Source: a virus. Taken from it: a stretch of 64,000 nt of DNA. Under the pieces are notes generated by a model. That model saw nothing but the letters and a program-made list of their open reading frames with translations. It did not search any database and was not told where the DNA came from. Where the stretch lies: positions 44,544-108,543 of the IMG/VR virus record IMGVR_UViG_3300032083_002724. One strand, 5' to 3'. Made by a program: the position numbers and the translations under genes. Of this stretch, positions 7,156 to 25,907 are shown one piece after another (position 1 is the stretch's first letter; the number at the start of each line of letters is the position of its first letter).

Positions 7156-8622
7156 TTAATCAGATAATTCATAAGTCCAACTACAGTTCAAGCTATAAGC
7201 GCCTGTTTTTGGATTCCAAGTTTCTTGAGGAGCATTCACAAAGTATTTCCTTACATTACTTTCTTGTGATGGAGATAAATCATTTACTATTCTTGATATT
7301 TCAGTAGCAAAAGGCGCAACTAAACTGGGCTTGGTTAGAAGTAAGTCAGATCTACTATCACCATAACCAAGTCTGCTAGGATCAACTACGAACTCGATAC
7401 TTAAACTTCTAGTAAATTCAGTTCTAGTTCCCATGCCCTGAAGTATAGGTCCAGTACCTCTACCTATAATTGGTATCACACTAAATACATCTCCGGGGTA
7501 CGTATCATTGATAGTAATATTTTCAGTTAATACTCCATCAAAAATATTAACTGGTCTATTGTCAAAACTTATGTTATAACTAACAGTACCCTCATCAGGA
7601 TTAAATGCTGCACTAACTGATTTTGGTTGACTATTCATGCTGTGTTCTGTAGCACCGTTCGCCCTTGTGTACAAATGAGAAGCAGTGCCAAAATCGCCAT
7701 TATTAGACAAACTTAGCCATTCAGTTCTAGCATTATCATCTGCATTACTACCTGTGCCATCAGTTGTTGTGTCAAATCCACGTATGTTTCCATCTATAGA
7801 AACTTCAGTAAATCCTCCTGTACTAGAAGATGTATTTACAGTAAAGGACTCATGATGCTTGTTGCCAGAAGGTCCAATAAGCCAAGTATCTGAAATAGTA
7901 TAACTACCAGCAGCTACATCAATACTTTGTGACCTTCTATGTTTATAAGAAGCATAGCCTTCTAGTTCTAGTAGACCAGCTTCTAAACCACCGTCTGGAT
8001 AAGCAGCAGCAGAAGTAGCATCATAACCCGCATTGGTAAGATATGTTTTAGCGTTGTACCATGCCGCACATGAACCAGCAGGATCACCAGTAGTAGAATC
8101 ATCTACATCAGCATTTTCTCTGCCAACCGCAGTAACGTTTCTCGTCACTGTGTAATACTTTATATTTTCCCCATAAGTATTATCTTGTTCTACACTGTAA
8201 TCTTCGCCAAAAGATTCTATTTTACCTGCACCACCATCACCACAAGCTTCAGCGGTAGCGTCTCTACTATAAGCTATTAGATTTACTGTGTAGGGTGCGT
8301 GGTTAATGTATACACCCTCTCCAAAACTTATATCCAAAAGTCTACATTGAAATTCTTGATTTCCAACTTCTAGCTTTACCCACTCTTTATCAACAAAGTG
8401 ACTTTCAATACCCTGCTGCGAACTAAGTATAACATTTAATCTAGAAGAAGGGACTTCTGCTTCATCTGAGCCTCCACCAGATATATCAACAACAAAACCA
8501 GTTAATGTTATATTATATACTTTAGTAAACCTAGCCGTTTTATTTCTGTCTTGGGATACAGATATGCTGACAAACGGTGCTGGTATTATGTCGCTACCTT
8601 CAACTTTTACTACTGATGCCAT
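7156..8622 (-). CDS. Putative tail protein, 488 aa
   Basis: The ribosome site is AAAGGAAA before ATG at 8622. The first 125 residues read as alternating beta strands ('FTKVYNITLTGFVVDI', then 'WVKLEVGNQEFQCRLLDI'), a pattern seen in distal tail and other tail-tube-adapter proteins. The middle (about 125-330) is acidic and Ser/Thr/Gly-rich, and the last 150 residues again look beta-rich with 'YNISFDNRPV' and a Trp-rich end 'NCSWTYEL'. Position two genes after the tape measure is where distal-tail proteins sit in siphoviruses, but the giant gene between them breaks the usual order. Structural assignment is likely, exact identity is not. Confidence 0.6.
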   Translation of the reverse strand: MASVVKVEGSDIIPAPFVSISVSQDRNKTARFTKVYNITLTGFVVDISGGGSDEAEVPSSRLNVILSSQQGIESHFVDKEWVKLEVGNQEFQCRLLDISFGEGVYINHAPYTVNLIAYSRDATAEACGDGGAGKIESFGEDYSVEQDNTYGENIKYYTVTRNVTAVGRENADVDDSTTGDPAGSCAAWYNAKTYLTNAGYDATSAAAYPDGGLEAGLLELEGYASYKHRRSQSIDVAAGSYTISDTWLIGPSGNKHHESFTVNTSSSTGGFTEVSIDGNIRGFDTTTDGTGSNADDNARTEWLSLSNNGDFGTASHLYTRANGATEHSMNSQPKSVSAAFNPDEGTVSYNISFDNRPVNIFDGVLTENITINDTYPGDVFSVIPIIGRGTGPILQGMGTRTEFTRSLSIEFVVDPSRLGYGDSRSDLLLTKPSLVAPFATEISRIVNDLSPSQESNVRKYFVNAPQETWNPKTGAYSLNCSWTYELSD

Positions 8623-8643: not shown

Positions 8644-11600
8644 TTATGGACTTGGCGTTGTCGTAACACCACTAGAATATAAATTAAAACCAGATCCAGA
8701 GAATACTCCAGAAACCATATCTGGAATGTTGCTAGCATATAGTCCCAATCCACTACTTAATACACGCCCTTCAGCTACTTCTGCGAATAAATTCATGGAA
8801 CCACTAGCTACTGGAGGTCTTCCACTGGTGTATAGAGTGAAGTTTCTATTATCAATTGGAACTCCTCTGAACCTTTGTCCTGTTATTTCTTTTATAAATG
8901 GTCTGTGGACAACAAAGCCTCTTTGTGAAGGATCTTGACCAGATACTTCTAAGAATATCTCTCCCTCATTATTTGTATACAAAACTCCACTTGTTTCATG
9001 CTCTGTATTTAATCCACCGCTATTGTGAACTTCAAGATATATAAAATCACTAACGTTAGATGTTTGAGATCTATCTATGCCAGAATCACTATATATTCTA
9101 GCTTGTAAGAATATTCCGGTGTTGGCAGTTGTCTGGTCTGGGACTCTCAATATACCATCACTAACATACGCAGCGCCAGCGTCTAGCCCCATCGTAAATG
9201 TTGTATGATTACCACTAGTCGCAAACTTATGATGAGGAGATCCTACAGCAAATATGTAATCACTATCTGATGTCTTATCTCTAGAGACAGACAAAGCTTT
9301 ACCAAAGTAATCATTTTCAGATCCAGATGCAGATACTGTCTTTTGCAATCTAGAATTGTAACCCTGTGGTACGAGTTTCTGTACCAGCTGCCAATCTTTA
9401 GTTCTGCTATCCCAATCACTTACTGCGTCTTCATAGACAAAAACTGCTCCATTATTAAGAACAGCTGTTACTCCACTGCCACCTAGAGCATACTCATGCC
9501 TTACGCCCGACTCACCCATGTCATATATATTTCTTTCAGGTATATCAATAGAAGCAGAGAACGCTTTATGATTAAATGCTCCACTTGCTTCACCTCCCCT
9601 AGAGAATATCATTTCCTCAAAATTAGGGAAGTCATGCCCCGGCGCTCCAACAGCAAGTACATCATCACGGAAATCAACTGAATAACCAAATTGATCAGTT
9701 ACTCTAGTAAGATGATCTAGCTCTCCAGAAGTGTAAGCGTGATTACCCAAATGCAAAGAACCAGATGCAAGCTCTACATCAAATATATCTTGACCAACAT
9801 TAATACTCGTAGGTCTAAACTTACGAACTACGTTCCAACTCTTACTACTTCCACCAACTACACCGTAATCACTCAAGGTTCTAGTTCCACGCTCGTACAA
9901 GAATGCAGAACCAGCACCACCTCCATAGCTAGTAATCGTTCCAGATATTGCTTCGTATCTAGGCGTGTTACCAGAAACAGCAGTCCAAGTAGTTGGAGTT
10001 TCTGAAGAGAAAGCAGCAAAAGGTGAACCAACAACAAGTTTATTATCACGTATAGCTACAGAGTATCCAAACAAATCACCCGGATATCCAGAAGGTAATT
10101 TGTCAAAATCAAGATAATCATAACCTTTATCTTTGAGTAGTTGTGGCATCTGCCCATAGAATGCATCAGCATACATAGTGCCATCTATAATTCCACTAAA
10201 CTTAGCAGTTCCCCCGTAGATATATTGTTCTTGATCAAATGATGCAATTTGTGCTTTTTTAAGAGCAGGTACTTGTTCGGGGCGAGGAGGAAGATCTGTT
10301 GGCAATATATACAATGGACTTTCACCAATATCAATATCTAAAATAGTAATAACATTTCCATTTCTTTCTGCTGCTGGATCAACATCATCCATGAAATTAT
10401 TCATCTGTAATCCTGAAGTTGGAGTAGTTCCATCTCCAGCGAACCTAATCATTAACCCAGAATTACCAGTGGAGTTAAAGAGTTTTTGAGGACTAGATTG
10501 AACAGGGGCTTTGATTCTTGATATCACATTGTAGGAATTGCCCTGATTTTCATCTGGGAAAACAGTGTCTGGATATAAACTATTTAGAAAATCAGCAACA
10601 GTGTCATGTATAACTCCATTTTCATTAGCAATCCTACTACCCTGAATTAGACTAGCATCAGTCAAAACAGTAATCCTAGACTTATCAACGCCAACATCAA
10701 AAGGTCTTTGGTGATATACTTCTTGGGCTGCTACAACTGGACCGTCATCAATTAAACCATCAGGATTTCTTTCAATAAATATTCCAGAACACTCAGTAGA
10801 TGGACAGTATTTCATGCTATTTGTGCTGACAGGTCTTGATTCAGTGACTGTCGTAACTACTTCTGGAGTTCCCGGTATAATAATTTCTCTTTCACCAACC
10901 TTAACTGGAACTGGTGTAAGTTTTACATCAGAAGGTAGTAAAGCTCCAGAAATTCCAACAATACGTGTTGTAGATGGATTGAAGCTTAATGATTGAGCCT
11001 GTTCTAAAGTATAGTTAATCTTATTTGCATCCATGTAAATGGTAATTTCATTAACATCAATAGCAGTAGTACCATCTCCACTTGGGATATAAATATTTAT
11101 TGATTCATGATTTACTGACCCATCAAACTGAAACTCTCTTTGTCTTGGAGTAAATGCGTTAATATCATACTTTTGCTGCTCAGATCTAGTCTTATGTATA
11201 CGAGCGCCAATAAAGTCATTAGCAACAGTTCTAAATTCATTGTGTTGAGGATTGCCCGGAATATGAATAACGTCTTTTATTTCTACATTTGAACCACTTG
11301 CTTGTGCGCCATATCTTCTATCGCAATTACTAATTAAGAAATTGGTTTGTAATTTTTCATTAAAGTTTGCAGATATAGTATCAACGAATACTCTATAACC
11401 AGAACCAGCTAGAACAGGGAATGTTACGGAGGCAACACCTGTCTTCAAATATGGCACATCAATTATTTCAATGAAGTCATCAGTTATATTATGTATATCA
11501 TTACTGTTTCTATTTTGTGAACTAAGTAAAGCAGTGCCTCCAGATCTTATATCAACGCAAACTAAAGAACCTAAAGGAATATCTCGAATCTCAGCAATAG

Positions 11601-14600
11601 TATTATTGCTAATCCTTCCATATGCATTTTTTAATTCAATAGAACCTTTCAAATCTGAGTATGCAAACATTTCAGTAGACGGAGTGGTGCTTCCCTGTAG
11701 CGTAACTCCATTTGGAAGTCTAAAGTCTGTTACATCTGCGTACTTACCTCTAGCTTCTAATAATAAAGGTTTAATATTTATACCTAAACTATTTGCAATT
11801 TTCTCAACAGCTCGTATCCTATCAATACTAACTGATGATTCATTGCTACTACTACGACCTAAAGTAATATATAATTTTTTATTATTTGTTGAAAGCCATT
11901 CTTTAATAAATCCCATCTCTCTGTTAAACACTGTATCACTTATGGGATCACCATTATCGTCTAGCAGTGTCGGATTAGCAATCCAAGCAGCTTGATAATG
12001 ATCGTTGTCTACATAAAATTTAAATGTTGTAATAGTATCTAATTTTCCGTCAGAAGGTATAGAGGCTTCAAGTAAAGCATCTAAGATAGACTCTTCTCTA
12101 GCTTCAAAGAATGAGTCAGTTCCTGTCCAATCAGCAATGAAAGCGAAGTCTTTTAGTCTCTCTGTTTCACTTCCAACCTCGTAAAGAAGATTGTCATAGA
12201 ATAAAACATGTCTATCGTCACGACCACTAAATATAAATGATCTTAGCTCTGTCTCAGTAGTGCCAATTAATATTACCTCTGACGAGCTTTCTGCATATTT
12301 TTCTTTAGCAGTTATTACCAAAGGCTGGATATTAACAGATGACCTCTTCTGTTCTTTTTCTGGATTGGATTCCCCTCTTAGAATATTAGTTTTATTAAAC
12401 GATTGATCTGGAGTAGTTATAAATTTACTAGGACTTGAAGTAGGCTGTATATTTAAATTAATACGCTTGTAATTATTTGAGTCAGCTGACCAGTAAAAAG
12501 CAGCCTCTTCAAAGGGATCATCTCCAAACACATCTTCAGATATAATTTCAGTACCCATTATATCTTCAATAATTATTTCATCTGGTGTAGCTGGTGTCAC
12601 CTTCTCAAAACTAACATGTTCTGAAGCCACCATCAGAGGAATTGGCTCATAATTTATTAAAGTAGGAAATACTGGACAATCACCTTCACCAAGGCAACAT
12701 CCATAATCAAGTTCATTAACAGTTCCAAACGCAAAAGCTAGATTAACTGGATATATGATAACTCCAAGACCTCTTGGGTCTTCACAAAAGTCATTCCATT
12801 CTGCTCTAAGGTCTCCACCGTGTTGAGGTATCATATTACATCTACTGTTTAGATCTGCATAACTTGGAAAATCTCCTATTTCTGGAATGCCAAGAATATT
12901 CTTTCTTTCTTCACAAGTATATGCTTCGTATATACCGGGGTAATTTAGTTTTATATCACCCACGCCTGATGCGTAAAGATCAGTACTAAGAACATAAGTT
13001 GATGTAGTATTTCTAGGAACAAAGGATGGTATTACATTTGGTTCATTTTCATTGAATTCTTGGTCATCAAGTCTATTCGACCCAATCATAGATTCAAACG
13101 AATTTCTAGCAGGAACAATCGTCATTCTAGAATCTAATCGTTGAAGAATCTTATTTATTATTGCAGTGCCTTCTGCGTAAATCCCATTACCTTCAAATCT
13201 AGGATCATCAGCGACAAGAACTAAATGTCTATCACCAAGACCCAACCAATCTTGTATGTTGTCTAAAACTTCATCACTTAGTGCATCTATTTCTGGAGTT
13301 ATTATAAATGCTAATCCTGCGTCATTAGGAATGTCAACTTCACTCTCTGGCAGTCTAGTAAATGTTTTGGAATTTGAAGCAAAAATCTGCGACATGTGAT
13401 CAAACAGATTAGCACCTTGTGATTCAATATTTACAGATCTATGTTTGTTACCAAACAAAGTAAACTCTACAGCTTTATTGTTGTGCGGATAGTATCTTCT
13501 AGATTCAAAAACAGTTACAGAACCAGCATTAACACTATTGTACCATTGACTTTTAATATGTGTTACGTGATTGTAGTTAGTTTGTGGCCTCCACCATAGA
13601 TCAATTAATCTAAGTGGATCGCCAGTACCTATGTCGTCATGTAAAACGCTATCAGTTGGCGCACCAGCTGCTACTATACTACCATCCTCGTTAACTGCAA
13701 CACTGTAGCCTAGCCTTGGAGTAGGAGCAAACTTATTAAACAACCAGCTCCATTCACCTCCCGGTTTTATTTCTGAATACTTATATTCTTTTATTAAATC
13801 ATAACAATGTATATTATTATCTCTACGTAACTGCAATTTACCACTTGGTGTTAATTCATCATACACAGCATTGTCAGCAACACTATTACTACCTGCCTCG
13901 CTTTGAAGACTTTGCCACCTTCTAAGCATGGTTCTCAAGTATCCCGTTGGATTGTCATTAGACCCAACATCAGAAAGCCAACTACCCACATAAGGTCTTG
14001 GATCTACGTAATTTTTTTGCCATATTTGAACTGCTTCATTAATATAAGGAGAGCCAATAGCAATAACATTTGCATCATCACTAATTGCAACAGCGTGTCC
14101 AAATCTATCTACCGTATTATTATTTAATGTTGTTGGAGAATAAATCTCATCTATGATATTCCATCCAGAAACTCCATCATTATTTTCTTCTTCAAAAACA
14201 ACAACTACACCACCACTAGGTGGAGCTACATTGAATGTAGCAGCATCAACGTCGAAGTTACCTATAAAGTTAGCAAACAATTCAAAATCTCTAGAATTTT
14301 TCATTCTATCTAAATCTAAAGTTTGACGCAACAATTCATTGGAAAGATCTATCCACCTTTCTCCTCCAAGCTCTCTATTTGTAAACTCAGTTGTAGCTCC
14401 AGATCTAGGAGTTCCACCTATGTCTGTCACACCACTAGCAAGAGAGTATTCTGCATACCAATCTTTAAATCTATCGAATGAAGCACCTAGTTTTCCTGCT
14501 CCCATAGAAAAGCTATCATCAATAATAGCAGAAACAATTACAGGTATATTATTGTTTGGTTTTGTTGCATCATACTTGAATACGCCACTCTCTGCACCGT

Positions 14601-17600
14601 GGAAGATTTGTTTTAGTTGTTCAAGCATTTTGTCATCTGTAGCTTGCCATCCACCAGTTTGATTGTTATCAGTTCGTTTGTGATTATTAATCTCAAACTT
14701 GAACACTGTTCCATCTGCTTCTGGATCTATAAATTCGTTAGGATCTGCATTAGCGTCATCCAAAACAGGCTCAACTACAATAATCTTAGGATCTATTTTA
14801 ACAGCAGGATCACAATAGAACTTATATAGTAAATCATGTTCTTCAATGACAGATAGAACATCACGCCATGTTTGCGTAATAGGATGTCCACCCGGACCAC
14901 GGAATGTGCGCTCTTGCACAAATGGAGATGTAAAGACAAACAGGGCTACTTGTAAAGAATCTGGAACTGGGTCATCAAATCTTCTAGACCACTTACCGTT
15001 TGGCGCACCTGCAACAATAATAGGACTGTTTCCAGAGCTAGACATGTCTAATGAATATCCTAGATTTCTACCTTCTTGGTTAAGCGTCCAGTTAGTCTGT
15101 ATAGCAGCGAATGGAAGATCCCTCTGATTGGCTGTCCCTTCATTCAATCTAGTAATGACGGATCTTGTCTTGCTATCTCTTCTCATTCCCTCTGGATAAG
15201 CCAGTTCTGTTACTAGAGAGAATCCAGATTTATCATCTTGCTCAGACCAATCAAAGCCGGTAGGTGCAGGATTTCTTTTGTACACAAATACTGAACCAGC
15301 TTCTCCAAGAGAATACGATCCAGTGAAATCGTGTACTTCACGATATGGCGCACCCACAAGTAAGTAGTTGCCCTTTGCTTTAACGGATGCTCCATATTCG
15401 TCACTGTAATCTCGACCAGAAGCTTCAGGAGTACTAACAACGCCAGAAGCTCCAGATATACCATCAGCAATTAACTTGATACCAGAGAAATTAACTTCAT
15501 CATTAAACCCATACTCTATGCTCATTGATGCTGGAACACTTTTTCTGTCAGTGCCTCCAGACTTACCAAATATAGTCATTTCATAAGGAGAGTCAGGCAC
15601 AAGTCCAGTATATTTTCTGATTCCATAGAAGTGACCACTGTATCCTACATCTGTTTTAAAGCCACTAGTAGCTAGATTAGTATACAATCGTTTAGGTCTA
15701 AATATTCCAGCTTCTACACAATCATCACCAAATGTTTCTCCGTGGATAGTAATTGGAGTCTCAGTTGCTCTTTCAAAATTGAAGTCACAGCTGCCAAATG
15801 CTGTCAAATCAACACCACGTATTTCATCATTGGCTTCTAAATATGAATAATCAGTTTCATTTGCTAGAATACCTGTTCCAACATTTTCATTAGTCCAGTT
15901 GATGAAGTTGGAAGCATTGTCTGTATTCGCCAAGAATGCGTAACTCATAGTTACAAGGTTTAGATTAGAAACTCCAGAAGGCACAACTCTAGAACCAATT
16001 ACAAACAGAGGCATTTGATCTATATTTGTATCTTGTGCTGGCTGTACTGTATTCTCAGTATACAGATTCATTAACTGTGTATCTGTAGTAGGATCTGGAA
16101 TTGTACCATGTACGAATAAAGATTGTTGTTGATCTGTTTCGATCACGCCATCAGAGAATGAAAATAAACCTATACTACCAGATGGTGGCAGTGGTGTGAT
16201 GTCCGTAGTGACAAATAAATTCATCTCAGAACGAGCATCCAACTCTATCTTACCACCAACAAAAAGACTAATAGCAGGATTATGAGTTTGTATATGTGGC
16301 TCATGACCAAATAATTCACCAATAGAACCAAAAGAATTTAGACTTGGATCAAATGTTATACTTCCCTCGATGGTGCTAGTCACTAATGTCAAAGGTGGAA
16401 TACTACCATTTATAGGATCGAGCGATACAATATTTGTACCAGAAGTGTAAAGATTAGCACTTCCACTAGCTACAGGAACAGCTTCACCGCTTGTGTATAG
16501 ATTAAAGTTTCCAGAGTCTATGACATGACTATTTACAAAGAACTCTATAGCTTGATTACGAATAGTGCGACCGTCAACATAGAAAGTAAATCCAGATTCA
16601 GGGATTATTATTCCAGAAGCCAAAGCCTCTTCAGCTCTAAGATTTACAGCATGTAATTTAAGATTAGATCTAAATGATGTGCCAGATGGATATGCTAAGT
16701 CATACTGAACAAACATTTCATCTAAATCAAAATTGTAATATGCTTCAGTCTTTTCTCTATCAATTACATCGCTGTTGAAGTCAGCCCAAGGTTCTGAGTT
16801 GTCAATAAAATCTTCATAAGTGAAAGTACTGCTCAACTTTTGCCAGCAACCACTCTGCTCTAAGTAGTGTGCCTTACGATTTACTAAGCCATAATTACTT
16901 CTTTCAAGCTCACTGGTGTCGTTATATTGTGGCGCATAAAGGCTAACAATTAACTTAGGACCAGTTGTTCCATCTGACCATGTAACATTATTATCAATGT
17001 CATGTTCCATTATGGTGTCAACAACTAATCCTCTTTGTGTAAAATCGTAACCTCTCGGTAAAGATTTAGATATTCTAGGTGTGACTGCGTAAAATCTATC
17101 ACTATTGTCATCTCTTGGCACACTAAGATTAAATCTTAACATGTCATTTTCTATCTGAGAATGATAAGCTAAACCTGATACATTTATAGAGCCACTTGGT
17201 AAAGCAGTATCAGTCCTTTGAGTATAACCACTACCATCATGAGATAGGTTAAAGATAACAAAATCCTTGCCTACTCTTGTTGTAAATCTATCAAACTCAT
17301 GATTAAATTGACAAATCTTAAAGTCACCCAAGTGCCACTTTTCAGTTTCATCGTTTACATATTCCCAGAAATTGTATTGTCGTTTATCGTAAGTAAGACT
17401 GCCACTATCAAATGGTACTTTAAGAGTCCTGAAGTAACCAGAGGCAGAGGTTTGCTGCATTACTCTAGATTGCTCAGACGGAATCAATCCTTGAACAATA
17501 TTAGCACCACTAGCATTAAATCCACCTAAACCTATGTCTGTTATAAATGCGTTAATACCTATACCAGAACCATAAGAGTGACCAGCAATGATGTCGCTAT

Positions 17601-20529
17601 TGCCTGATTGCATGACAAAGGTATTAGATCTTGCTCTAAATATATTATCTCTAGAGGAATCATCATCAGTATATAATTTAAGATAACGACTATCATTATC
17701 ATTATAAGTTAGTAGTACGCTAAGTGGATAACTATACTTACTATACAATTTTGTATCAAAGACAGAGTTAATACTACCATCAGTGGCTCTAGCATATCCA
17801 GCAAGATATCCACCACTGTAACCAAGAGCAAATTCAAGTTCTTCTCCACTATCCCATTTGGATAACAGCACCCCAGAATCCCAAAGGTTGTAAGAGCTTC
17901 CACTAATACTTATGTCAGGAGAAAATCTAACATAGGCCGAGAAACCTCCAGAAACTGGGATGCCGCTTCCAAAATTAATATTACCATCTACTCCAGATAC
18001 TCTAATAGCTTTATTGAATGAATCAGAGATTCTACCTTTAAGTTCATGGTCTGATTGCACCCAATCAAGAGTTTTATATGATCGTTGCGAAGTATCAAAA
18101 ATGCCACTACTGTTAAATCTAAGACCAATGTTTTCTACTATACTGGCGTTTGCGTCAGAGTTAAAGAAACCACTAGCTGCCGCAGCAGCAAAAGCACCTA
18201 TTGGGTTAGACAAAACAAAATTATCTTGAACGCGAGTGAAATCATAGAAGCCACTCATGAACGGAGTTTCTAGTTCTGGATTATAAAATCCATAGCCAAA
18301 CTGAACTGGGTTGAATGGACCATTTACAATCTCACCATCAACGCCTCTCCATCTTCTTGAATAATTTGTTTTAAGTGTTGATTCTTTATCTAATTCTTTA
18401 TATCCATGAGGTATATTTTCTATCAAAGATGAATCTACAACTGTGATGTCTGAATTAATGTTTGTTGGAAAATCAGAAGAACCTGAAGGTAGAGCAAAGA
18501 ACTCTGATCTGTGGAATGGCCTATTGTTATCTTGATGACCAACAACATGGAGAGGGAAAGCGTTGGAAGGCTTATAAGTAAATGATAAATATGCATGTGC
18601 AATTGCAGCGCCGCTGGGGAATGGGAATATATCAAGATATAAATGTTCAAAGTAACTACTATCATTGTATGTAGTACTAGCACCTAGATCAACATCATCT
18701 TCATATATTTTTAGAGGTATTGTATACTCTGCAAATTCTGTGCTATTTATAACAGGGCTTGTTGGAAGAGAATAATGATCACCACCTTCATTGTTAGTTC
18801 CAGATGTTGCGAAGTAACTAAACTTATCAGAGAAAGTTTCTGTAGATATTCCAAGATCGTCAATCCCACCAAACCCAGACTCAACTGGCATTACACCAAT
18901 GCCAGAAGGATGCTCACCAGAAGCATTCTGTAGGAATCCACCTATCTTTGGAGTTATGTGGAAAAGTTTGTCATCGCTATATCCCACAACGTCTACAACA
19001 AAATCTCTAGTTCCAATTGCTTTTTTAGCTATTATCTTAAGTTCTATATCTTCTATTTGGAAGAAAGAATCTACTTCAGCAAAGTTTTTGCTTTGAGCTG
19101 TTTTCAACCCAAATCCAAACTGTCTGTCAAATTCACCATCTCTCAAGCCAAAGACAGAAGTTGGTGGTTCATGACCAAACTTTAATTTAAGTTTACCTGA
19201 GTCAGCAACGTCAGATGTCGATACTAACTCAATAAATCTACCTTGATCGCTTGACCTTAAGGATTGAGTAATTTCATTCTCAACCTCATAATTAAATACA
19301 TTACTATCATTCTTCCAAACTGAATTTTCACCAGATGGGTAAATAGTAGTATCATAATTGTAAGCTAATACTTGAGATGGTAATATCTCTCTTACTGAAC
19401 GTAATCCTGTTTCTTGTGATTTTATGTATACTCCAAGATCGCCATTATCTATAATTCCAGACACACCTAAAGCACCACCGCTTGCCATGATTTCTATGGC
19501 TGCTATATTCAAAGTATCATGAACATTTACGCCAGTTGGAATGCAGCTCTGGTCGTAGCCAATACTAAAGCCTTCAGTGAATGAGTCGTCATCTGGTCTG
19601 CATTGTACATCTATATCTAAATTTAATGTATAACCATTACTCATATTGAGTATGGGATAATTAGCGTTAGATGTTAGCAACTTTGCATTATTAGTTTCAG
19701 CTTCAGATATATATGTTACATAATTTTTGTAATCACTATTGTCAGTATCAGCGTCACCTATGATATCAAAATCTTTATACTTAGTAATGAGATTGCCAGA
19801 GGGATCTTCTAATCTAAGATTTGAAAGTGTGTACTTTGGTGGCACATTAGAAGAAGATGAATTGAGTGGCGCTATAGCTCTAATAATTAAGAAGCTATCA
19901 CGCATAGCAGGATATGGAGGATCTACAAAACATTTGAATTTAAATGTTGTTTGTTCAGAAAGATCTCCACTTATAGCGATATTTTGGTTTTCATTTGCTA
20001 CCAAGAAACTTTGTTTGAAATTGCCGGTAAATACACCTTCGTCAATATAATCTATTTTACTATCAGTATCTGTAATATCGGTGTGATTAAGAGTTTTAAT
20101 AATAGTATTATTACCACTATCAAGAATTAAATCACCACTGGGATATATCTTTTTAGTAGATATAAAATCATCTAAGCTTAATAGAGAACTATAATTACCT
20201 GCAAGTTTATCGACCGTGCCAGTTTTAATACTACCTGTACCAATAGTACGAGCTATAATGTTTCCTTCAATTAAATCAATAGTAGCATTAACAAATGCGT
20301 TTTTAGATGTATTGTCTGTTGGTTGTGCGCTTATTGATAGAGATGGCTTTTTTATACTTGATATGCTTTCAAATCTATGTATAAAACTATGAAAAGTTGT
20401 AGAACCTAATAAGGATGTTTCTGTATTCAAATTTGTTAGCGCATTACCTTGAACAGATATCCCAGACAATAGCTTACTAGAGCCAGAAGGTCTACCTGTC
20501 ATTTTAGCGCTGCAAAAAAAATCACTCAT
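8644..20529 (-). CDS. Giant tail protein, 3961 aa, with LamG-like domain, seven FG-GAP repeats and a DxSxS insert
   Basis: One uninterrupted frame of 11.9 kb starts 3 bases after the tape-measure stop; the ribosome site is weak. Domains by eye: beta-rich N-terminal part; a concanavalin/LamG-like domain at about 860-1015; a block of 'NLYTSG'-type short repeats at about 1440-1600; seven FG-GAP (integrin alpha propeller) repeats with cores near residues 1726, 1840, 2158, 2288, 3501, 3627 and 3762; a DxSxS metal-site-like motif (D2004-S2008) between repeats 2 and 3; an alpha/beta segment near 2400-2440 ('LVLVADDP') between repeats 4 and 5; and a second 'LYxSG' block at the C-terminus. Such domains bind sugars or proteins, so host recognition is the likely job. 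Position behind the tape measure supports a tail fibre or tip protein. Domain calls are from motif reading only. Confidence 0.8.
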   Translation of the reverse strand: MSDFFCSAKMTGRPSGSSKLLSGISVQGNALTNLNTETSLLGSTTFHSFIHRFESISSIKKPSLSISAQPTDNTSKNAFVNATIDLIEGNIIARTIGTGSIKTGTVDKLAGNYSSLLSLDDFISTKKIYPSGDLILDSGNNTIIKTLNHTDITDTDSKIDYIDEGVFTGNFKQSFLVANENQNIAISGDLSEQTTFKFKCFVDPPYPAMRDSFLIIRAIAPLNSSSSNVPPKYTLSNLRLEDPSGNLITKYKDFDIIGDADTDNSDYKNYVTYISEAETNNAKLLTSNANYPILNMSNGYTLNLDIDVQCRPDDDSFTEGFSIGYDQSCIPTGVNVHDTLNIAAIEIMASGGALGVSGIIDNGDLGVYIKSQETGLRSVREILPSQVLAYNYDTTIYPSGENSVWKNDSNVFNYEVENEITQSLRSSDQGRFIELVSTSDVADSGKLKLKFGHEPPTSVFGLRDGEFDRQFGFGLKTAQSKNFAEVDSFFQIEDIELKIIAKKAIGTRDFVVDVVGYSDDKLFHITPKIGGFLQNASGEHPSGIGVMPVESGFGGIDDLGISTETFSDKFSYFATSGTNNEGGDHYSLPTSPVINSTEFAEYTIPLKIYEDDVDLGASTTYNDSSYFEHLYLDIFPFPSGAAIAHAYLSFTYKPSNAFPLHVVGHQDNNRPFHRSEFFALPSGSSDFPTNINSDITVVDSSLIENIPHGYKELDKESTLKTNYSRRWRGVDGEIVNGPFNPVQFGYGFYNPELETPFMSGFYDFTRVQDNFVLSNPIGAFAAAAASGFFNSDANASIVENIGLRFNSSGIFDTSQRSYKTLDWVQSDHELKGRISDSFNKAIRVSGVDGNINFGSGIPVSGGFSAYVRFSPDISISGSSYNLWDSGVLLSKWDSGEELEFALGYSGGYLAGYARATDGSINSVFDTKLYSKYSYPLSVLLTYNDNDSRYLKLYTDDDSSRDNIFRARSNTFVMQSGNSDIIAGHSYGSGIGINAFITDIGLGGFNASGANIVQGLIPSEQSRVMQQTSASGYFRTLKVPFDSGSLTYDKRQYNFWEYVNDETEKWHLGDFKICQFNHEFDRFTTRVGKDFVIFNLSHDGSGYTQRTDTALPSGSINVSGLAYHSQIENDMLRFNLSVPRDDNSDRFYAVTPRISKSLPRGYDFTQRGLVVDTIMEHDIDNNVTWSDGTTGPKLIVSLYAPQYNDTSELERSNYGLVNRKAHYLEQSGCWQKLSSTFTYEDFIDNSEPWADFNSDVIDREKTEAYYNFDLDEMFVQYDLAYPSGTSFRSNLKLHAVNLRAEEALASGIIIPESGFTFYVDGRTIRNQAIEFFVNSHVIDSGNFNLYTSGEAVPVASGSANLYTSGTNIVSLDPINGSIPPLTLVTSTIEGSITFDPSLNSFGSIGELFGHEPHIQTHNPAISLFVGGKIELDARSEMNLFVTTDITPLPPSGSIGLFSFSDGVIETDQQQSLFVHGTIPDPTTDTQLMNLYTENTVQPAQDTNIDQMPLFVIGSRVVPSGVSNLNLVTMSYAFLANTDNASNFINWTNENVGTGILANETDYSYLEANDEIRGVDLTAFGSCDFNFERATETPITIHGETFGDDCVEAGIFRPKRLYTNLATSGFKTDVGYSGHFYGIRKYTGLVPDSPYEMTIFGKSGGTDRKSVPASMSIEYGFNDEVNFSGIKLIADGISGASGVVSTPEASGRDYSDEYGASVKAKGNYLLVGAPYREVHDFTGSYSLGEAGSVFVYKRNPAPTGFDWSEQDDKSGFSLVTELAYPEGMRRDSKTRSVITRLNEGTANQRDLPFAAIQTNWTLNQEGRNLGYSLDMSSSGNSPIIVAGAPNGKWSRRFDDPVPDSLQVALFVFTSPFVQERTFRGPGGHPITQTWRDVLSVIEEHDLLYKFYCDPAVKIDPKIIVVEPVLDDANADPNEFIDPEADGTVFKFEINNHKRTDNNQTGGWQATDDKMLEQLKQIFHGAESGVFKYDATKPNNNIPVIVSAIIDDSFSMGAGKLGASFDRFKDWYAEYSLASGVTDIGGTPRSGATTEFTNRELGGERWIDLSNELLRQTLDLDRMKNSRDFELFANFIGNFDVDAATFNVAPPSGGVVVVFEEENNDGVSGWNIIDEIYSPTTLNNNTVDRFGHAVAISDDANVIAIGSPYINEAVQIWQKNYVDPRPYVGSWLSDVGSNDNPTGYLRTMLRRWQSLQSEAGSNSVADNAVYDELTPSGKLQLRRDNNIHCYDLIKEYKYSEIKPGGEWSWLFNKFAPTPRLGYSVAVNEDGSIVAAGAPTDSVLHDDIGTGDPLRLIDLWWRPQTNYNHVTHIKSQWYNSVNAGSVTVFESRRYYPHNNKAVEFTLFGNKHRSVNIESQGANLFDHMSQIFASNSKTFTRLPESEVDIPNDAGLAFIITPEIDALSDEVLDNIQDWLGLGDRHLVLVADDPRFEGNGIYAEGTAIINKILQRLDSRMTIVPARNSFESMIGSNRLDDQEFNENEPNVIPSFVPRNTTSTYVLSTDLYASGVGDIKLNYPGIYEAYTCEERKNILGIPEIGDFPSYADLNSRCNMIPQHGGDLRAEWNDFCEDPRGLGVIIYPVNLAFAFGTVNELDYGCCLGEGDCPVFPTLINYEPIPLMVASEHVSFEKVTPATPDEIIIEDIMGTEIISEDVFGDDPFEEAAFYWSADSNNYKRINLNIQPTSSPSKFITTPDQSFNKTNILRGESNPEKEQKRSSVNIQPLVITAKEKYAESSSEVILIGTTETELRSFIFSGRDDRHVLFYDNLLYEVGSETERLKDFAFIADWTGTDSFFEAREESILDALLEASIPSDGKLDTITTFKFYVDNDHYQAAWIANPTLLDDNGDPISDTVFNREMGFIKEWLSTNNKKLYITLGRSSSNESSVSIDRIRAVEKIANSLGINIKPLLLEARGKYADVTDFRLPNGVTLQGSTTPSTEMFAYSDLKGSIELKNAYGRISNNTIAEIRDIPLGSLVCVDIRSGGTALLSSQNRNSNDIHNITDDFIEIIDVPYLKTGVASVTFPVLAGSGYRVFVDTISANFNEKLQTNFLISNCDRRYGAQASGSNVEIKDVIHIPGNPQHNEFRTVANDFIGARIHKTRSEQQKYDINAFTPRQREFQFDGSVNHESINIYIPSGDGTTAIDVNEITIYMDANKINYTLEQAQSLSFNPSTTRIVGISGALLPSDVKLTPVPVKVGEREIIIPGTPEVVTTVTESRPVSTNSMKYCPSTECSGIFIERNPDGLIDDGPVVAAQEVYHQRPFDVGVDKSRITVLTDASLIQGSRIANENGVIHDTVADFLNSLYPDTVFPDENQGNSYNVISRIKAPVQSSPQKLFNSTGNSGLMIRFAGDGTTPTSGLQMNNFMDDVDPAAERNGNVITILDIDIGESPLYILPTDLPPRPEQVPALKKAQIASFDQEQYIYGGTAKFSGIIDGTMYADAFYGQMPQLLKDKGYDYLDFDKLPSGYPGDLFGYSVAIRDNKLVVGSPFAAFSSETPTTWTAVSGNTPRYEAISGTITSYGGGAGSAFLYERGTRTLSDYGVVGGSSKSWNVVRKFRPTSINVGQDIFDVELASGSLHLGNHAYTSGELDHLTRVTDQFGYSVDFRDDVLAVGAPGHDFPNFEEMIFSRGGEASGAFNHKAFSASIDIPERNIYDMGESGVRHEYALGGSGVTAVLNNGAVFVYEDAVSDWDSRTKDWQLVQKLVPQGYNSRLQKTVSASGSENDYFGKALSVSRDKTSDSDYIFAVGSPHHKFATSGNHTTFTMGLDAGAAYVSDGILRVPDQTTANTGIFLQARIYSDSGIDRSQTSNVSDFIYLEVHNSGGLNTEHETSGVLYTNNEGEIFLEVSGQDPSQRGFVVHRPFIKEITGQRFRGVPIDNRNFTLYTSGRPPVASGSMNLFAEVAEGRVLSSGLGLYASNIPDMVSGVFSGSGFNLYSSGVTTTPSP

Positions 20530-20531
20530 TT

Positions 20532-23500
20532 TTATACTACCATACCGTCCCGTGTTAGTGATCCATCAGGACCAACGCTGTATTCACCAATAGCGTCTGA
20601 AACGTATTGCATAATATCGTTCTTAAGATTAGCAGTTAGATTATTTATAAATGAAGTGCCAGTTAGATTGACATTAATATTAGTTGTATCTAGTTTAATT
20701 TGGAATTGTGTATTTTGTAGGTTAGAAATATTATTAGCAAGTTGTGTGTTAAAATCTCTAAGTGAAGCGCTGAATGAATTTAGGACTTCTGGGCTTACGC
20801 CCATTCCACCACCTCCACCAGCTACTGGATTTTTACTGCCCTCATGTAGATATTGAACTTGTCCTCCTCTAGACATACCCTTGGCTGTGCTTCCTCCGCT
20901 ATTCATAGATTGTAATATTGAAAGGTTATTACCACGTTGCACAGCAGATCTACGAACAACAAACTCGCCCGGAGTCAACATGGCAGGAACAGTATCAGTA
21001 CCCTTTGGTACAAACATTCCTTTGCTAGCATAAACCATTCCACCTTTTGCAAAACCTGCTGCTGCTAATCTTTCTTTAACAGCTTCTAATTGTGTTTCAG
21101 CTGCTTGCATTTGAAGGTTGGCAGCATCAAGCATCCTTGCCGCAGAATCAGCTTCAAGTTGAGCTGTTTCTGGTAGAGTTTGAGCTAATGCAATAATTTC
21201 TTGATTTATTGCATTTTCTTCGTCTGTTGTTCCAGCTATGACTCCAGCTTGATCAGCCATTCCAAAGCGAGATAAAGCACCAGCAGCAGCATTTTCAAGC
21301 ACTCCACCACTACCGCCGATCTGTTGACCAAATACAGTCTGTACTCCAGCATTCTGCATGTTTTGTAAGTTTTGCACAGCGCCACCCATGCCAGCCATTC
21401 CGAAAGATGACATCAAATTTTGATCACCAAGGGCAGCTGCGGCAGTAGCTCCTTGAGTTGCACGACTCTTAAAGAATTCTTCAAAATCACCAGATATTAA
21501 AGATTCTAGACCTTTCTTTTCTTCAGCATTTCTAGCTTTAATTAATTCAAGTTCTCTCTGTTTTTCACTAATAAGTGCGCGGGTAAGATCAGCCTGTTCT
21601 TTTATAGCTGCGTTGAGACGATCTTGTTCGCCTTGCATCGCAGTGCCTTCCATTCTACCAATATCACCACCGCCAGCAACATTAAGTCTTGTTCCTTGTA
21701 TTCTATTTGCTCTTGCTGTAATTTCATTATTTCTTTGACGTATTTCACCGGCACTACCAGTTCTCAACTGAGTTAAACCAAGGTTGGAAGTACGGGCATT
21801 AGATTGTGCTATCAAACTTTGTTGACGCTGTTGTGAGGTTACAGCTGGCCCACCAGCTTTAGCAATAATTTCAGCAGCTTCCAATTGTACCGCAATAACC
21901 TTAGCATTAGCATCAGCTAACTGATTCTCCAAAGCAATTCTCTTCTTGAGAATGCTAGCCATCTTTTGTTCAATTTCAGCAGATTTTTTTATAGCCTCTT
22001 GAAATTCTTTTAAAGACTCTTCTCCAAATTGATCAACAAGTTTCTGTAAAACACTGAAATCACCCCTATTCAATGCGTCTATATCACCTTGCTCTAGGTC
22101 AGCAGTAGATATCAAGGATTTTAGATTGTCAATCTGTGTATCAGACATTATACCTTGCATCTGCTGTCCTATTTGATCAGCAAAGGCTTGTTTTAATTCT
22201 TGTGGATTCAGAGGGCCGTCTTTTGCAGGATCAAAACTTTTCTTTAAGTTTTCAATCACACTCGGAACTGCTGCTTGTGCTGCGTTAATTCCTGTAGTAG
22301 ATTCTTTAAACTTATCAATTTGATCAGCACTAGCTCCAAGATTTTCTAAGGCTCTAGCACCTGTCTGGACAGCGCCAGCAAAAACGGCAGGGTCTAAGGC
22401 TGCACCCGCAGCAGTTAGACCAGCTTGTAAAGTACCCAAAGCATTCTCAATACTACTATTATCACCTAAATCTTCAAAATTACCTAAATTGTTTAGTGCG
22501 ACGATAGAAGCGTCAGCAGCGGCATTTACATTTGTAAGTCCAAGATTTAATAATTCAAATTGTTTTCTAGCTCTTTCTACATCTTTTTGTATACTATCAA
22601 AAATATCTTCTAAACTAACGCCAGCTCTATCAAACGCTGCACGTAATGCTGGATCTAAACTAGCAAAAAATCCTTGAAAGTCACCACCAGAAGCTGCCAT
22701 AGCTCTTGCTTGAGCTTGAACAGCAGGCATTGCTATCTTAGTTACATCTTGATCTCTAGCTTCTTGAGCTTTTCTCTCTTCTCTTCTGACTGTGGCGGTG
22801 GTTTTTTCCATTCCAAGCATCTGTCTTATTTGACCCGGAACACCACCAAGAAAACCAAACATAGAGTCACCACCACTTGAACTTCTCTCTGATGCCGTTA
22901 CTGCCTCTTTTCCTCTTCTATTAGCTTCACTAGCAGATTCAGCAGCTGCGATGGCTGGTTCCAAAAATTCTGCTATAGAAATATTACCTTTGGTATATTC
23001 TTGGGCTGCTTTAGCTGCGTCTTCATGAGCCTGAGCTAGTGCTTTTGCAGTAGCAGCTGCCTGTGCCTGAGCAGCAGCTTGAGTTTTAGCAACTTCAATA
23101 CTAGGCTTTAAGACTTGAGCTATCAATAATCCAAAAGCAGCGCCTATAGCAGCGCCAATTGGACCACCAAGTAAAAAGCCAAGAACAGCGCCGCCGCCTG
23201 CACCAGCTGCCTGAATACCCACTGAATCAAATCCAGCACCCTCCACAGCGGCTCGCTCTGCCGCTGCAACATTACCGTCTTCTATGGCATATGTTAGCCT
23301 TTCAGTGACTCCATTTAATTTTTTCAATAATCCAACAAAAAGATACATACCAGCGGCAGCAATCGCTGCTGCGCCAAATGCTTGTGTAACACTGCCAACA
23401 GCTGCACCAAGCTTTCCAAACTTGTCGCCTAATACGGTAAAACCTTGTCCCTGCTTCAATGGACCCATTCTTTCCTGAATGCCAGCCATTTTTCCGAATT

Positions 23501-25907
23501 TAGATGTGCCTAATCTATCACCAAAATTTATACCCATTTGTTGACCGATATTAGTAAATGCCGATTTGCCTTCTCCCCCAAACAAGGCAAACATGCTGGA
23601 AACATTTGCTGCCTTAGCAAGTTCAGTAAGTCCTGTAGCAGCTGCTGTAATTGTAGTTCCAAATTCTAGAATCGAACTAGTATTTCTCATGAAAGCGCTG
23701 GTATTCTCATCAATAACTGGCATCAAAGCTTGTATAGAACCCAAAGCTAGAGTAAGACCTAAAGCACCGCTGATTCCTCCTTCTGCTTCACCACCATTCT
23801 TAAATCTTTGTACCTTACCGCCTGTAGCATATCTATTGATTTTTTTAAGATTACCATAACCAAAAGCTTCAGCAGATTTTCTATTTACAACAAATTCACC
23901 GGGAGTAAGAAGTGCTGGAACTGTGTCCGTACCAGCGCCACTAATGCCTCCACCTTTATTTCTTCTTGCGTATCTACCAGTAACGTTTGAGGGGCTAAGA
24001 GGAGATTTACCATGATCAATTAGATATCTACCAAAACCCCCAGATGTACCAGTAATTTGATCTAACAACATCTCTTCTGTTGTTTTGTTAGATGTAAGAT
24101 ATTGCTTATACTGATACGTACCCCTATTAGCAGCGTTACGAGCTGTTTTAGACGATGTTACTAGCGTGCTAGAAGGAATCTTAACTCCTCTACCAGCACC
24201 AGAACCTTTAGCCTTGGGAAATTCTTGTTCAGGGTTCAATGACTGTAATGCTGATAGTCTGGACTCAGCTACCCGACTAGGCTTTCCTTTGGTTTCATAA
24301 GCGTCATAACCTGCGGGTCTAAATGTTGCTCTGAATTTTTTCCCAGTAGGCGCGACCATTGCGCTAAACGTATCTCCATCATCCATTTTTATGCTTCGTT
24401 TATCTAGGCTAGCTAATTCTGCCATGCCGCCTGCTTTATATTTATTAATACTAGATAAATTTTTAGCACCAAAAGCTTGTACAGCGCTTTTACGAATTAC
24501 AAACTCTCCCGGCGTAAGCATAGCTGGCACAGTATCAGAGTTTCCAGTACCGGGAACTGTACCTCCTCTATTCATACCTAAAGCTCCCTTAATACCACCA
24601 AATGCGCCTCCAAGACCCTTAGCGATCTTAATAGTAGCGAAAGCTGCGATAAGTGGAATTAATGGCTTGATAGCATCAGCGACTTTCAAAAATGCACTAG
24701 CAATGTTTAAAGCAGAATTAGCTATAAATTGAAAGCTTTTAGTTCCAGTTATTTCTCTTATTAGAGCAACAAATTCTTCTTTAGTTCTAGAAATTCTTAC
24801 AGCTAAAGATAGTTGCGCAGTGGCAGCATCGTTAGCCAATGAATCAGATCCAGCAATAGCAACATTCAAAGCGTCTTGCGCTGTAGAAAACTGTTGAATT
24901 AATGGAATGACTTTACCAATTTGTCTAAACCCACCAAGTTCTTCAGCAATTTTTATAAAACTTAAATCACCAGCCTCAAGCCCAGAAAGAGCTTGACTTA
25001 ATCTTTTAATAGCTTCAAAAGGTCCAACAAATTTACCATCTAAATCAGTAAGTTCAACACCAAATTGTTTTAAAAATTCTATAGTTTTTGGTCTTTGTAT
25101 TCTCGTAAAGATAGTACGTAAACCAGTAGCAATACTTTCTGCTGACTCTCGGGTTGTAGCCCTAACACTAGTGAACAGCGCTATAAGTTCATTTAAATCA
25201 CCACCAGCAGCTTTAAACACACCTCCAGTACGACGAATAACAGCAATCAAGTCACCTGCTTCAACAGCGAACTGACCAGCAACAGCATTTATAGCACCAA
25301 GCTGCGCTTCTAACGCTGCTGCTCCTTGCTTAAACTGATTGAAGATAGCAATAGCACCTTCAGCAGTTTGAGCAATATCGTCAAACGTAGGAGCTAAAGT
25401 GGTACGAGCTAAAGAATCTAAAGCAACTTTTGTTTCTCTTGCGTCAAGACCTGCCTGAGAAAGAATTCTAGATACATTAATTAAAGAAGTCGAAGATGCA
25501 CCAAAAGCAGTGGAAAGACGAGTGATCTCACTTGTCAGACCCCTTAGCTCAGTAACAGTCTTTCCAGTAACCTGTACAACTTTAATTAATTCTCTTTCAA
25601 AATCAATTGCTTCTTTTATAGCGTTACTAAGAGTACTAGTAAATAACGTGACAGCGCGAGTGGCAATAGCTAATCCAGCATACCTTCTTATGGAGGTCTG
25701 CAATGTTTTGCCAAGACCACTAGCAGCTTGAGATGCTTGATTAGTGGCCTTAGTTATATTTTGGATTTGTTTCTGTGTTTGACTGCCACCCTGAACGTTT
25801 ACATTAACATTCACACCTTTAAGTTGTTGTTGTATTTGATTAACAACTTGTCTGGCGTTTTTTGGCGCTTGTAGTTGTACTTGTGCAGTTAATACAAATT
25901 TAGACAT
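20532..25907 (-). CDS. Tail tape measure protein with an inserted SNase-like domain
   Basis: At 1791 residues this is the classic length-determining tail protein. Residues about 95-310 match the TP901/PhageMin_Tail core ('FERELIKVVQVTGKTVTEL', 'ASSTSLINVSRILSQAGL'). Two hydrophobic segments (about 845-870 and 900-935, the latter Gly/Ala-rich) are typical of tape measures that insert in the cell membrane. The signature 'TPGEFV' occurs three times (about 470, 670 and 1645). Between the first two copies lies a region like a thermonuclease: D510-G-D512-T, R530, E538 with the R-to-E spacing of 8 seen in staphylococcal nuclease, and 'GFGRYL' with R627. Long Ala/Gln-rich helices fill 1000-1600. The gene follows the tail tube and assembly genes as expected. 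Confidence 0.93.
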   Translation of the reverse strand: MSKFVLTAQVQLQAPKNARQVVNQIQQQLKGVNVNVNVQGGSQTQKQIQNITKATNQASQAASGLGKTLQTSIRRYAGLAIATRAVTLFTSTLSNAIKEAIDFERELIKVVQVTGKTVTELRGLTSEITRLSTAFGASSTSLINVSRILSQAGLDARETKVALDSLARTTLAPTFDDIAQTAEGAIAIFNQFKQGAAALEAQLGAINAVAGQFAVEAGDLIAVIRRTGGVFKAAGGDLNELIALFTSVRATTRESAESIATGLRTIFTRIQRPKTIEFLKQFGVELTDLDGKFVGPFEAIKRLSQALSGLEAGDLSFIKIAEELGGFRQIGKVIPLIQQFSTAQDALNVAIAGSDSLANDAATAQLSLAVRISRTKEEFVALIREITGTKSFQFIANSALNIASAFLKVADAIKPLIPLIAAFATIKIAKGLGGAFGGIKGALGMNRGGTVPGTGNSDTVPAMLTPGEFVIRKSAVQAFGAKNLSSINKYKAGGMAELASLDKRSIKMDDGDTFSAMVAPTGKKFRATFRPAGYDAYETKGKPSRVAESRLSALQSLNPEQEFPKAKGSGAGRGVKIPSSTLVTSSKTARNAANRGTYQYKQYLTSNKTTEEMLLDQITGTSGGFGRYLIDHGKSPLSPSNVTGRYARRNKGGGISGAGTDTVPALLTPGEFVVNRKSAEAFGYGNLKKINRYATGGKVQRFKNGGEAEGGISGALGLTLALGSIQALMPVIDENTSAFMRNTSSILEFGTTITAAATGLTELAKAANVSSMFALFGGEGKSAFTNIGQQMGINFGDRLGTSKFGKMAGIQERMGPLKQGQGFTVLGDKFGKLGAAVGSVTQAFGAAAIAAAGMYLFVGLLKKLNGVTERLTYAIEDGNVAAAERAAVEGAGFDSVGIQAAGAGGGAVLGFLLGGPIGAAIGAAFGLLIAQVLKPSIEVAKTQAAAQAQAAATAKALAQAHEDAAKAAQEYTKGNISIAEFLEPAIAAAESASEANRRGKEAVTASERSSSGGDSMFGFLGGVPGQIRQMLGMEKTTATVRREERKAQEARDQDVTKIAMPAVQAQARAMAASGGDFQGFFASLDPALRAAFDRAGVSLEDIFDSIQKDVERARKQFELLNLGLTNVNAAADASIVALNNLGNFEDLGDNSSIENALGTLQAGLTAAGAALDPAVFAGAVQTGARALENLGASADQIDKFKESTTGINAAQAAVPSVIENLKKSFDPAKDGPLNPQELKQAFADQIGQQMQGIMSDTQIDNLKSLISTADLEQGDIDALNRGDFSVLQKLVDQFGEESLKEFQEAIKKSAEIEQKMASILKKRIALENQLADANAKVIAVQLEAAEIIAKAGGPAVTSQQRQQSLIAQSNARTSNLGLTQLRTGSAGEIRQRNNEITARANRIQGTRLNVAGGGDIGRMEGTAMQGEQDRLNAAIKEQADLTRALISEKQRELELIKARNAEEKKGLESLISGDFEEFFKSRATQGATAAAALGDQNLMSSFGMAGMGGAVQNLQNMQNAGVQTVFGQQIGGSGGVLENAAAGALSRFGMADQAGVIAGTTDEENAINQEIIALAQTLPETAQLEADSAARMLDAANLQMQAAETQLEAVKERLAAAGFAKGGMVYASKGMFVPKGTDTVPAMLTPGEFVVRRSAVQRGNNLSILQSMNSGGSTAKGMSRGGQVQYLHEGSKNPVAGGGGGMGVSPEVLNSFSASLRDFNTQLANNISNLQNTQFQIKLDTTNINVNLTGTSFINNLTANLKNDIMQYVSDAIGEYSVGPDGSLTRDGMVV

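Follow-up and report, generated by a model that had tools for sequence, protein, structure and literature searches.

The giant open reading frame on the minus strand of the analyzed DNA (the window, a 64,000-nucleotide stretch of a 108,543-base virus record) probably encodes a tail-tip or tail-fibre protein of widespread uncultured aquatic tailed phages, in which the C-terminal 60% would form a single seven-bladed propeller of the integrin (FG-GAP) type, interrupted by two inserts. The initial annotation, which gave no strand, had proposed an integrin-like architecture for this protein. The alignment and the models supported a seven-repeat propeller region on a tail protein, with two inserts at constant places; the part of the proposal that was not supported was the von Willebrand A (VWA) I domain. 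The tail-tip or fibre role is suggested by the order of the genes, by the propeller, and by a LamG-like stretch that some relatives carry. The same giant protein was found at 99.95% identity on an IMG/VR contig of 135,790 bases. The gene and its neighbors in the window are as follows.

20532..25907, minus: tape measure protein, directly upstream of the giant gene (PhageMin_Tail, E 1.7e-22; PHROG tape measure)
8644..20529, minus: giant tail protein, 3,961 aa (open reading frame, FG-GAP_2 match, and orthologues)
7156..8622, minus: 488-aa protein of no assigned family, the conserved downstream partner

A homologue of the 488-aa protein, which had no match in PHROG or Pfam, lay no more than 1,500 bases downstream in 67 of the 70 family members, and a tape measure-like ORF was located upstream in 45/59, counting only the members having upstream sequence. 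Neither a sheath nor Baseplate_J was matched in the window's record, itself possibly incomplete, and a non-contractile tail is therefore likely. The terminase, encoded at 51452-53428 of the window, had at least 599 relatives in IMG/VR, 78 to 100% identical among the 80 matches listed. Against cultured-phage records it had 44 matches, and the 20 of these that were listed were only 24 to 27% identical.

With tblastn, neither residues 1201-3961 (E limit 1e-5) nor residues 1-2786 (E limit 0.01) matched anything in 50,697 phage records, and the giant protein had no match in PHROGs. Residues 1601-3961 gave a single weak, unrelated match among PDB sequences (E 0.9), and a profile of residues 1587-2786 matched integrin alpha-6 (E 0.015) and integrin alpha-IIb (E 0.3) in the same database. 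Twenty-one records, 19 obtained through a terminase scan and 2 through the giant protein itself, were scanned for FG-GAP_2. Matches were found in six, comprising both giant-protein records and 4 of the 19 others: two full-length orthologues (38 and 39% identity across the whole length), one different FG-GAP protein, and one fragment at a contig end. Since many of the 19 were short contigs, the 15 non-matching records show no absence.

Profile scans yielded 28, 57, and 80 overlapping loci, the last being the 80 of 87 relatives kept in one family scan, and a genome scan added three loci/contigs in two bacterial MAGs. The main alignment held 70 non-redundant members (IMG/VR and the two MAGs), reduced at 95% identity from 154 ORFs of all scans; the window protein was included, its row standing for its near-identical copy. 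An earlier alignment of 54 members had been reduced at 90% identity from 78 full-core ORFs of the first two scans. Members with an incomplete core were excluded from both. The giant tail protein is common to many uncultured aquatic phages, and the phage group appears, from the sequence comparisons, to be abundant and without close cultured members in the cultured-phage collection searched.

Other propeller-type genes were observed in the surroundings of this family. On a contig with a related terminase (L112, 5537-14771), three different propeller-type repeat genes occurred among four genes, with matches to RCC1 (E 1e-70), FG-GAP_2 (E 3.9e-29; seven tandem repeats in a six-frame search), and, weakly, DUF5128, a 6-bladed propeller family (E 2.3e-4). 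A 5,382-aa relative (L122, 797-8644) carried RCC1 repeats (E 7.3e-22) and a cadherin-like domain (E 1.8e-7) in its N-terminal half and had in this way a second propeller-type region within one protein.

All seven FG-GAP cores read in the initial annotation were present in the 3,961-aa protein, at G1726, A1840/G1841, I2158/G2159, A2288/G2289, G3501, V3627/G3628, and V3762/G3763. Over the whole protein, Pfam FG-GAP_2 (PF14312) was matched beyond chance at E 5.8e-18, with 65.3 bits against a curated cut-off of 23. In a six-frame search of the record only four single repeats matched (E 1.3e-6 to 7.9e-5), so that Pfam alone sees 4/7. A unit profile built from the family's own units, and thus in-sample, detected exactly seven units in the window protein (i-E 0.0027 to 1.6e-10), the number of FG-GAP/Cage repeats in an integrin-type propeller. 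At i-E < 0.01 across the 70 members, it found seven units in 64, six in 4, five in 1, and eight in 1. By the core motif, a hydrophobic-G/A plus G/S/T pattern, 63 of the 70 had 7/7 cores and the other 7 had 6/7. The blades showed 39 to 59% mean pairwise identity across the family. Both long gaps in the series were constant, with spacings of 293 to 365 residues from core 2 to core 3 and 1067 to 1330 residues from core 4 to core 5 kept in 54/54 members of the earlier alignment. The second insert of about 1,200 residues, previously placed between repeats 4 and 5, was thereby confirmed, and it lies between two blades. The parts of the propeller, from model and alignment unless stated otherwise, are listed below.

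15460..15489, minus: strand-4-like motif before blade 1, residues 1681-1690, consensus YSGiKL (alignment consensus)
15190..15408, minus: blade 1, residues 1708-1780
14986..15078, minus: blade 2, strands 1-2, residues 1818-1848
14131..14217, minus: blade 2, strands 3-4, residues 2105-2133
13780..14118, minus: blade 3, residues 2138-2250, with a helical loop
13447..13728, minus: blade 4, residues 2268-2361
9805..10086, minus: blade 5, residues 3482-3575
9364..9705, minus: blade 6, residues 3609-3722
9139..9321, minus: blade 7, strands 1-3, residues 3737-3797

The DxDxDG calcium motif was absent from 12 of the 14 loops (strands 1-2 and 3-4) in all 70 members, and the window protein had it in none of the 14. 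It occurred in blade 4 of 20/70 members. Blades 5 to 7, where integrin alpha carries its calcium-binding motif, had it in 0, 3, and 0 of 70 in the 1-2 loops and in 0/70 in each of the 3-4 loops, and this feature of integrin alpha was accordingly rejected for the phage protein.

The repeat region was predicted with AlphaFold2 in two parts. Model 1 (residues 1587-2786, from 54 aligned sequences; mean pLDDT 71.5, pTM 0.49) contained blades 1 to 4, insert 1, and the first domain of insert 2; model 2 (residues 2735-3900, from 70 sequences; mean pLDDT 72.6, pTM 0.46) contained the remainder of insert 2 and blades 5 to 7. In both predicted halves the blades had a fold like that of integrin alpha. With Foldseek, the sole match of model 1 at E <= 0.001 was integrin alpha-L (E 8.5e-7), and all 44 matches of model 2 at that threshold were integrin entries. 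With VIA, integrin entries made up 48/50 of the matches listed for model 1 (about 200 to 250 residues at 2.7 to 4.8 A) and 50/50 of those listed for model 2 (Z 12.5 to 15.9), a dominance that reflects how many integrin structures are solved. Among the matches listed, the best for model 1 had Z 17.4 over 227 residues at 4.2 A, with others down to 2.7 A over 200 residues. The other two of the 50 were 90S pre-ribosome chains at Z 14.8 and 14.6, and the integrin match is therefore to be read as one of fold more than of lineage. For model 2, 47/50 of the matches listed aligned 149 to 173 residues at 2.3 to 3.5 A. Given these close fits to integrin blades, both halves appear to be open arcs with integrin-like curvature. 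The aligned regions were, for example, residues 231-397 in the alpha-IIb rows and 267-452 in alpha-5, the latter being what we take to be the last three blades of alpha-5.

The initial annotation had set one interrupted propeller against repeats lying in separate propellers, and the two predictions gave open arcs, one of four blades and one of three, each overlaying integrin blades, and no separate closed propellers. A single interrupted seven-bladed propeller, its ring closing from the two separately predicted arcs, is the favored reading of the models because of the 4 + 3 blades, the strand-4-like motif before blade 1, and gene splits that, bar one broken locus, occur only before blade 1. 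According to the extracts of PMC3192720, blade 7 of integrins takes its fourth strand from the chain segment preceding blade 1. The YSGiKL motif lies in a stretch with pLDDT under 50, in the model lacking blade 7. In model 2, a strand was predicted at 3807-3814, 15 residues past the third strand of blade 7, and this could instead be the fourth strand of that blade. Several relatives encode the giant protein by two genes, split at about residue 1303/1312 or 1582/1587, and in these the second gene, of about 2,200 to 2,500 aa, carries the entire repeat region. The sole locus broken within the repeats (L150, 4095-6438, on the same contig as L276) covers blades 1 and 2 and insert 1. It has a run of short ORFs in place of the giant gene and looks like the product of frameshift errors or misreading, or a decaying gene.

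Residue coupling was computed from the 70 sequences (about 55 to 57 effective). Among the 21 blade pairs, 6-7, 4-5, 5-6, and 3-4 ranked first to fourth, 1-2 eleventh, 1-7 seventeenth, and 2-3, which are certain neighbors, last. Averaged over blades, neighboring-strand relations reached 3.4 to 3.7 against a mean of 2.7, and strand 4 to strand 4 was equally high. Strand 3 of the own or preceding blade was the best partner for only 1/7 strand-4 segments, namely, 2350-2361 with 3538-3549 across insert 2. Because pair 1-7 ranks seventeenth and pair 2-3 last, the coupling is not leaned on; beyond pair 1-7 not being singled out, it counts neither way.

The arcs might close between chains rather than within one, blades 1 to 4 joining a neighbor's blades 5 to 7 in an oligomeric tail tip as a swapped propeller, or might stay as open platforms. 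Each half was predicted as an arc on its own, cores 4 and 5 are some 1,070 to 1,330 residues apart, oligomers are common among tail-tip proteins, and the coupling ranks are compatible with such an arrangement. It is nevertheless quite unlikely, as 4 + 3 blades give the integrin number in 63/70 members and none of the split members has its gene split between blades 4 and 5. Alternatively, the module may be a tail-tip scaffold or structural hub and not a receptor-binding head, with the inserts forming contacts to other tail proteins. Across diverse phages, the blades and insert 2a (the latter with a mean pairwise identity of 43%) vary less than receptor-binding parts usually do, and the gene neighbors are constant. 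This alternative is a serious one, if the lesser of the two functions, since variability (22 to 24% identity), as expected of exposed contact surfaces, is seen in insert 2c, in the insert-2 linker, and in the loop following blade 3.

Insert 1 and its candidate site map as follows.

14218..14985, minus: insert 1, residues 1849-2104, alpha/beta domain with the DxSxS site (model and alignment)
14926..14928, minus: residue 1868, candidate further metal ligand, Ser in the window (D in 59, N in 9 of 70)
14506..14520, minus: DxSxS site, residues 2004-2008, D-D-S-F-S ([DE]x[ST]x[ST] in 69/70)

The motif D2004-x-S2006-x-S2008 was exactly where it had been read. Position 2004 was D in 54 and E in 16 of the 70 members, 2006 was S in 51 and T in 19, and 2008 was S in 69; no other column triplet in the core was DxSxS-like in at least half of the members. 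The placement of this insert between repeats 2 and 3 agreed with the constant core spacing but differed from the model in strand-level detail. By DSSP of model 1, the chain exits after strand 2 of blade 2 and re-enters for strand 3, so that the insert appears to interrupt blade 2 itself, leaving insert 2 as the only one between blades. The integrin I domain is located between blades 2 and 3 in the extracts of PMC3192720 and PMC12422189; the place of insert 1 is therefore near that of the I domain and not identical to it.

The initial annotation's reading of insert 1 as an ordinary VWA I domain is highly improbable. The DxSxS motif is conserved and the best Foldseek match of model 1 is an integrin having an I domain, but Pfam VWA (PF00092) matched 0/70 members at E <= 1, and the motif is on a late strand of the insert, with about 100 residues following it in model 1. 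In local profile-profile comparison (hhalign), VWA signal from the unpermuted domain was confined to 11 to 25 columns round the DxSxS motif at a probability of 0.3 to 5.2%, against 79% for a VWA-versus-VWA control with two small alignments. The controls consisted of two alignments of three sequences each and then of 35 automatically excised domains, with the cut point plainly wrong in at least one (L315). The insert 1 profile had no match among PDB sequences at E <= 10.

A circularly permuted VWA-like domain, in which an FTDEF strand would come first and the DxSxS strand later to form a joint MIDAS-like site, is also doubtful, though less so. The metal ligands left unplaced in the initial annotation were a Thr and a second Asp. 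For the Asp there is now an upstream candidate, residue 1868, within a "VFTDEF" strand at the start of insert 1, which resembles the VWA strand bearing the MIDAS Asp; TDG is present in the VWA control sequences. The window protein carries Ser there, and no position was found for the Thr. Conservation of the putative site was joint, with residue 2004 acidic and 2006 S/T in 70/70, and Asp was present at 1868 in all 16 members with Glu at 2004. Together with the D in 59 and N in 9 at 1868, this makes a permuted VWA-like metal site possible, and the strand and helix order of model 1 fits a permutation of the VWA strand order. However, Glu at the first motif position, as in 16/70, is unusual, and the local comparison gave 2.4% for the permuted VWA, 5.2% for the normal one, and 2.3% for a control permutation, from which the permutation earns no support.

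Insert 2, which in the models connects blade 4 (strand 4) with blade 5 (strand 1), contained the following parts.

10135..13446, minus: insert 2, residues 2362-3465, between blades 4 and 5 (alignment spacing and models)
12730..13377, minus: insert 2a, residues 2385-2600, DUF4350-like alpha/beta domain (DUF4350 matches in members)
11725..12327, minus: insert 2b, residues 2735-2935, second alpha/beta domain, related to 2a (hhalign 93.7%, E 1.9e-7)
10480..10959, minus: residues 3191-3350, conserved, with DGPVVxAxE and SRIxVISDxSxIQG (alignment)

DUF4350 (PF14258) was matched by insert 2a at E <= 1 in 51/70 members, with a best E of 1.4e-4; the window protein was not among them. Insert 2b, at E <= 0.1 in a Pfam scan of insert 2 covering 47 of the 70 members, matched DUF4350 in 4/47 and ABC_transp_aux in 4/47, with neither in the window member. 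The insert 2a profile had no match among PDB sequences at E <= 1, and no relationship was detectable between insert 1 and insert 2a.

The regions flanking the propeller module are listed next.

16630..20529, minus: N-terminal region, residues 1-1300, LamG-like stretch in some members (alignment)
15925..16602, minus: short repeats NLYTSG / LFVxG, residues 1310-1535 (read from sequence)
8647..9138, minus: C-terminal region, residues 3798-3961, beta-rich, then NLYTSG-type repeats (sequence, model, and alignment)

The N-terminal region had a mean column identity of 38% (36 sequences). In a Pfam scan of 36 of the 63 N-terminal members, Laminin_G_3 was found in 2 (best E 1.8e-5), and the window protein had no such match. 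Against PDB sequences, the N-terminal profile matched only mevalonate kinase (E 0.8). Short repeats of the NLYTSG / LFVxG type border the propeller module on either side (15925-16602 and 8647-9138).

From these parts we infer an "adhesion head" on the phage tail that makes host contact. The arcs of four and three blades would close as one ring, with the strand before blade 1 completing blade 7. The 2-3 and 4-1 loops of an integrin-type blade share one face, from which both inserts would then project, and the ring would serve as a rigid base presenting them outward. The DxSxS site may hold a metal ion, and the domains so presented would touch the host surface. As far as sequence variation can tell, conserved blades combined with a variable insert 2c, linker, and blade 3 loop would fit such a rigid base with exposed variable parts. 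The module would then work like an integrin head by convergence without being an integrin. The fullest form of this proposal, in which phages evolved an integrin-like adhesion head independently of animals, with a tail-tip FG-GAP ring of seven blades, a permuted VWA-like domain that bears a metal-dependent adhesion site and is grafted close to where integrins have their I domain, and a second graft of paired DUF4350-like domains, is on present evidence unlikely.

Among known systems, the integrin alpha chains with an I domain (alpha-L, alpha-M, alpha-X) share with the phage protein the seven FG-GAP blades, for which integrins gave the best structural matches, and, between cores 2 and 3, an inserted alpha/beta domain bearing a DxSxS site. 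They differ in that the phage insert opens inside blade 2 in the model whereas the I domain follows blade 2 and precedes blade 3, and in that the phage protein has a second, larger insert between blades 4 and 5, no VWA sequence signal in insert 1 beyond the motif, and mostly no DxDxDG calcium loops, and is a phage tail protein. Inserts 2a and 2b resemble the Pfam alpha/beta domains DUF4350 and ABC_transp_aux, found here inside the propeller of a tail protein. Bacteria also have integrin-type seven-FG-GAP propellers; in the extracts of PMC3192720 these carry FG on strand 1 and GAP on strand 2, and the seven repeats of the phage protein, like FG-GAP_2, follow the same pattern. The bacterial propellers are described there as regular and compact with a calcium site per repeat, whereas the phage ring would be interrupted twice and mostly lacks the calcium motifs. 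Integrin-like propellers are also named in bacterial toxin systems in the extracts of PMC3482391.

In viruses, an FG-GAP or propeller protein with a suggested role in attachment is mentioned for prasinovirus MntV1 in the extracts of PMC11467894, and the BFVD matches of model 1 included a protein of Mimivirus LCMiAC01 (E 2.9e-7) and A0A6J5S3H5, "FG-GAP repeat, uncultured Caudovirales phage" (E 1.5e-5). These share FG-GAP repeats or a similar fold with the phage protein; an interrupted propeller with large inserts is not described for them in those extracts, the BFVD proteins being compared by match score. In the portions of the literature covered, a scope that left subscription journals and bioRxiv outside, no description was found of an integrin-type propeller built into a phage tail protein. 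On these sources, integrin-type propellers are known from animals, bacteria, and a few viruses, and what would be new here is one with two inserts, in a phage tail. Should the ring close and the metal site prove genuine, the giant protein, unmatched in the cultured-phage collection, would be a convergent parallel to the integrin head and a concrete host-recognition candidate for abundant aquatic phages.
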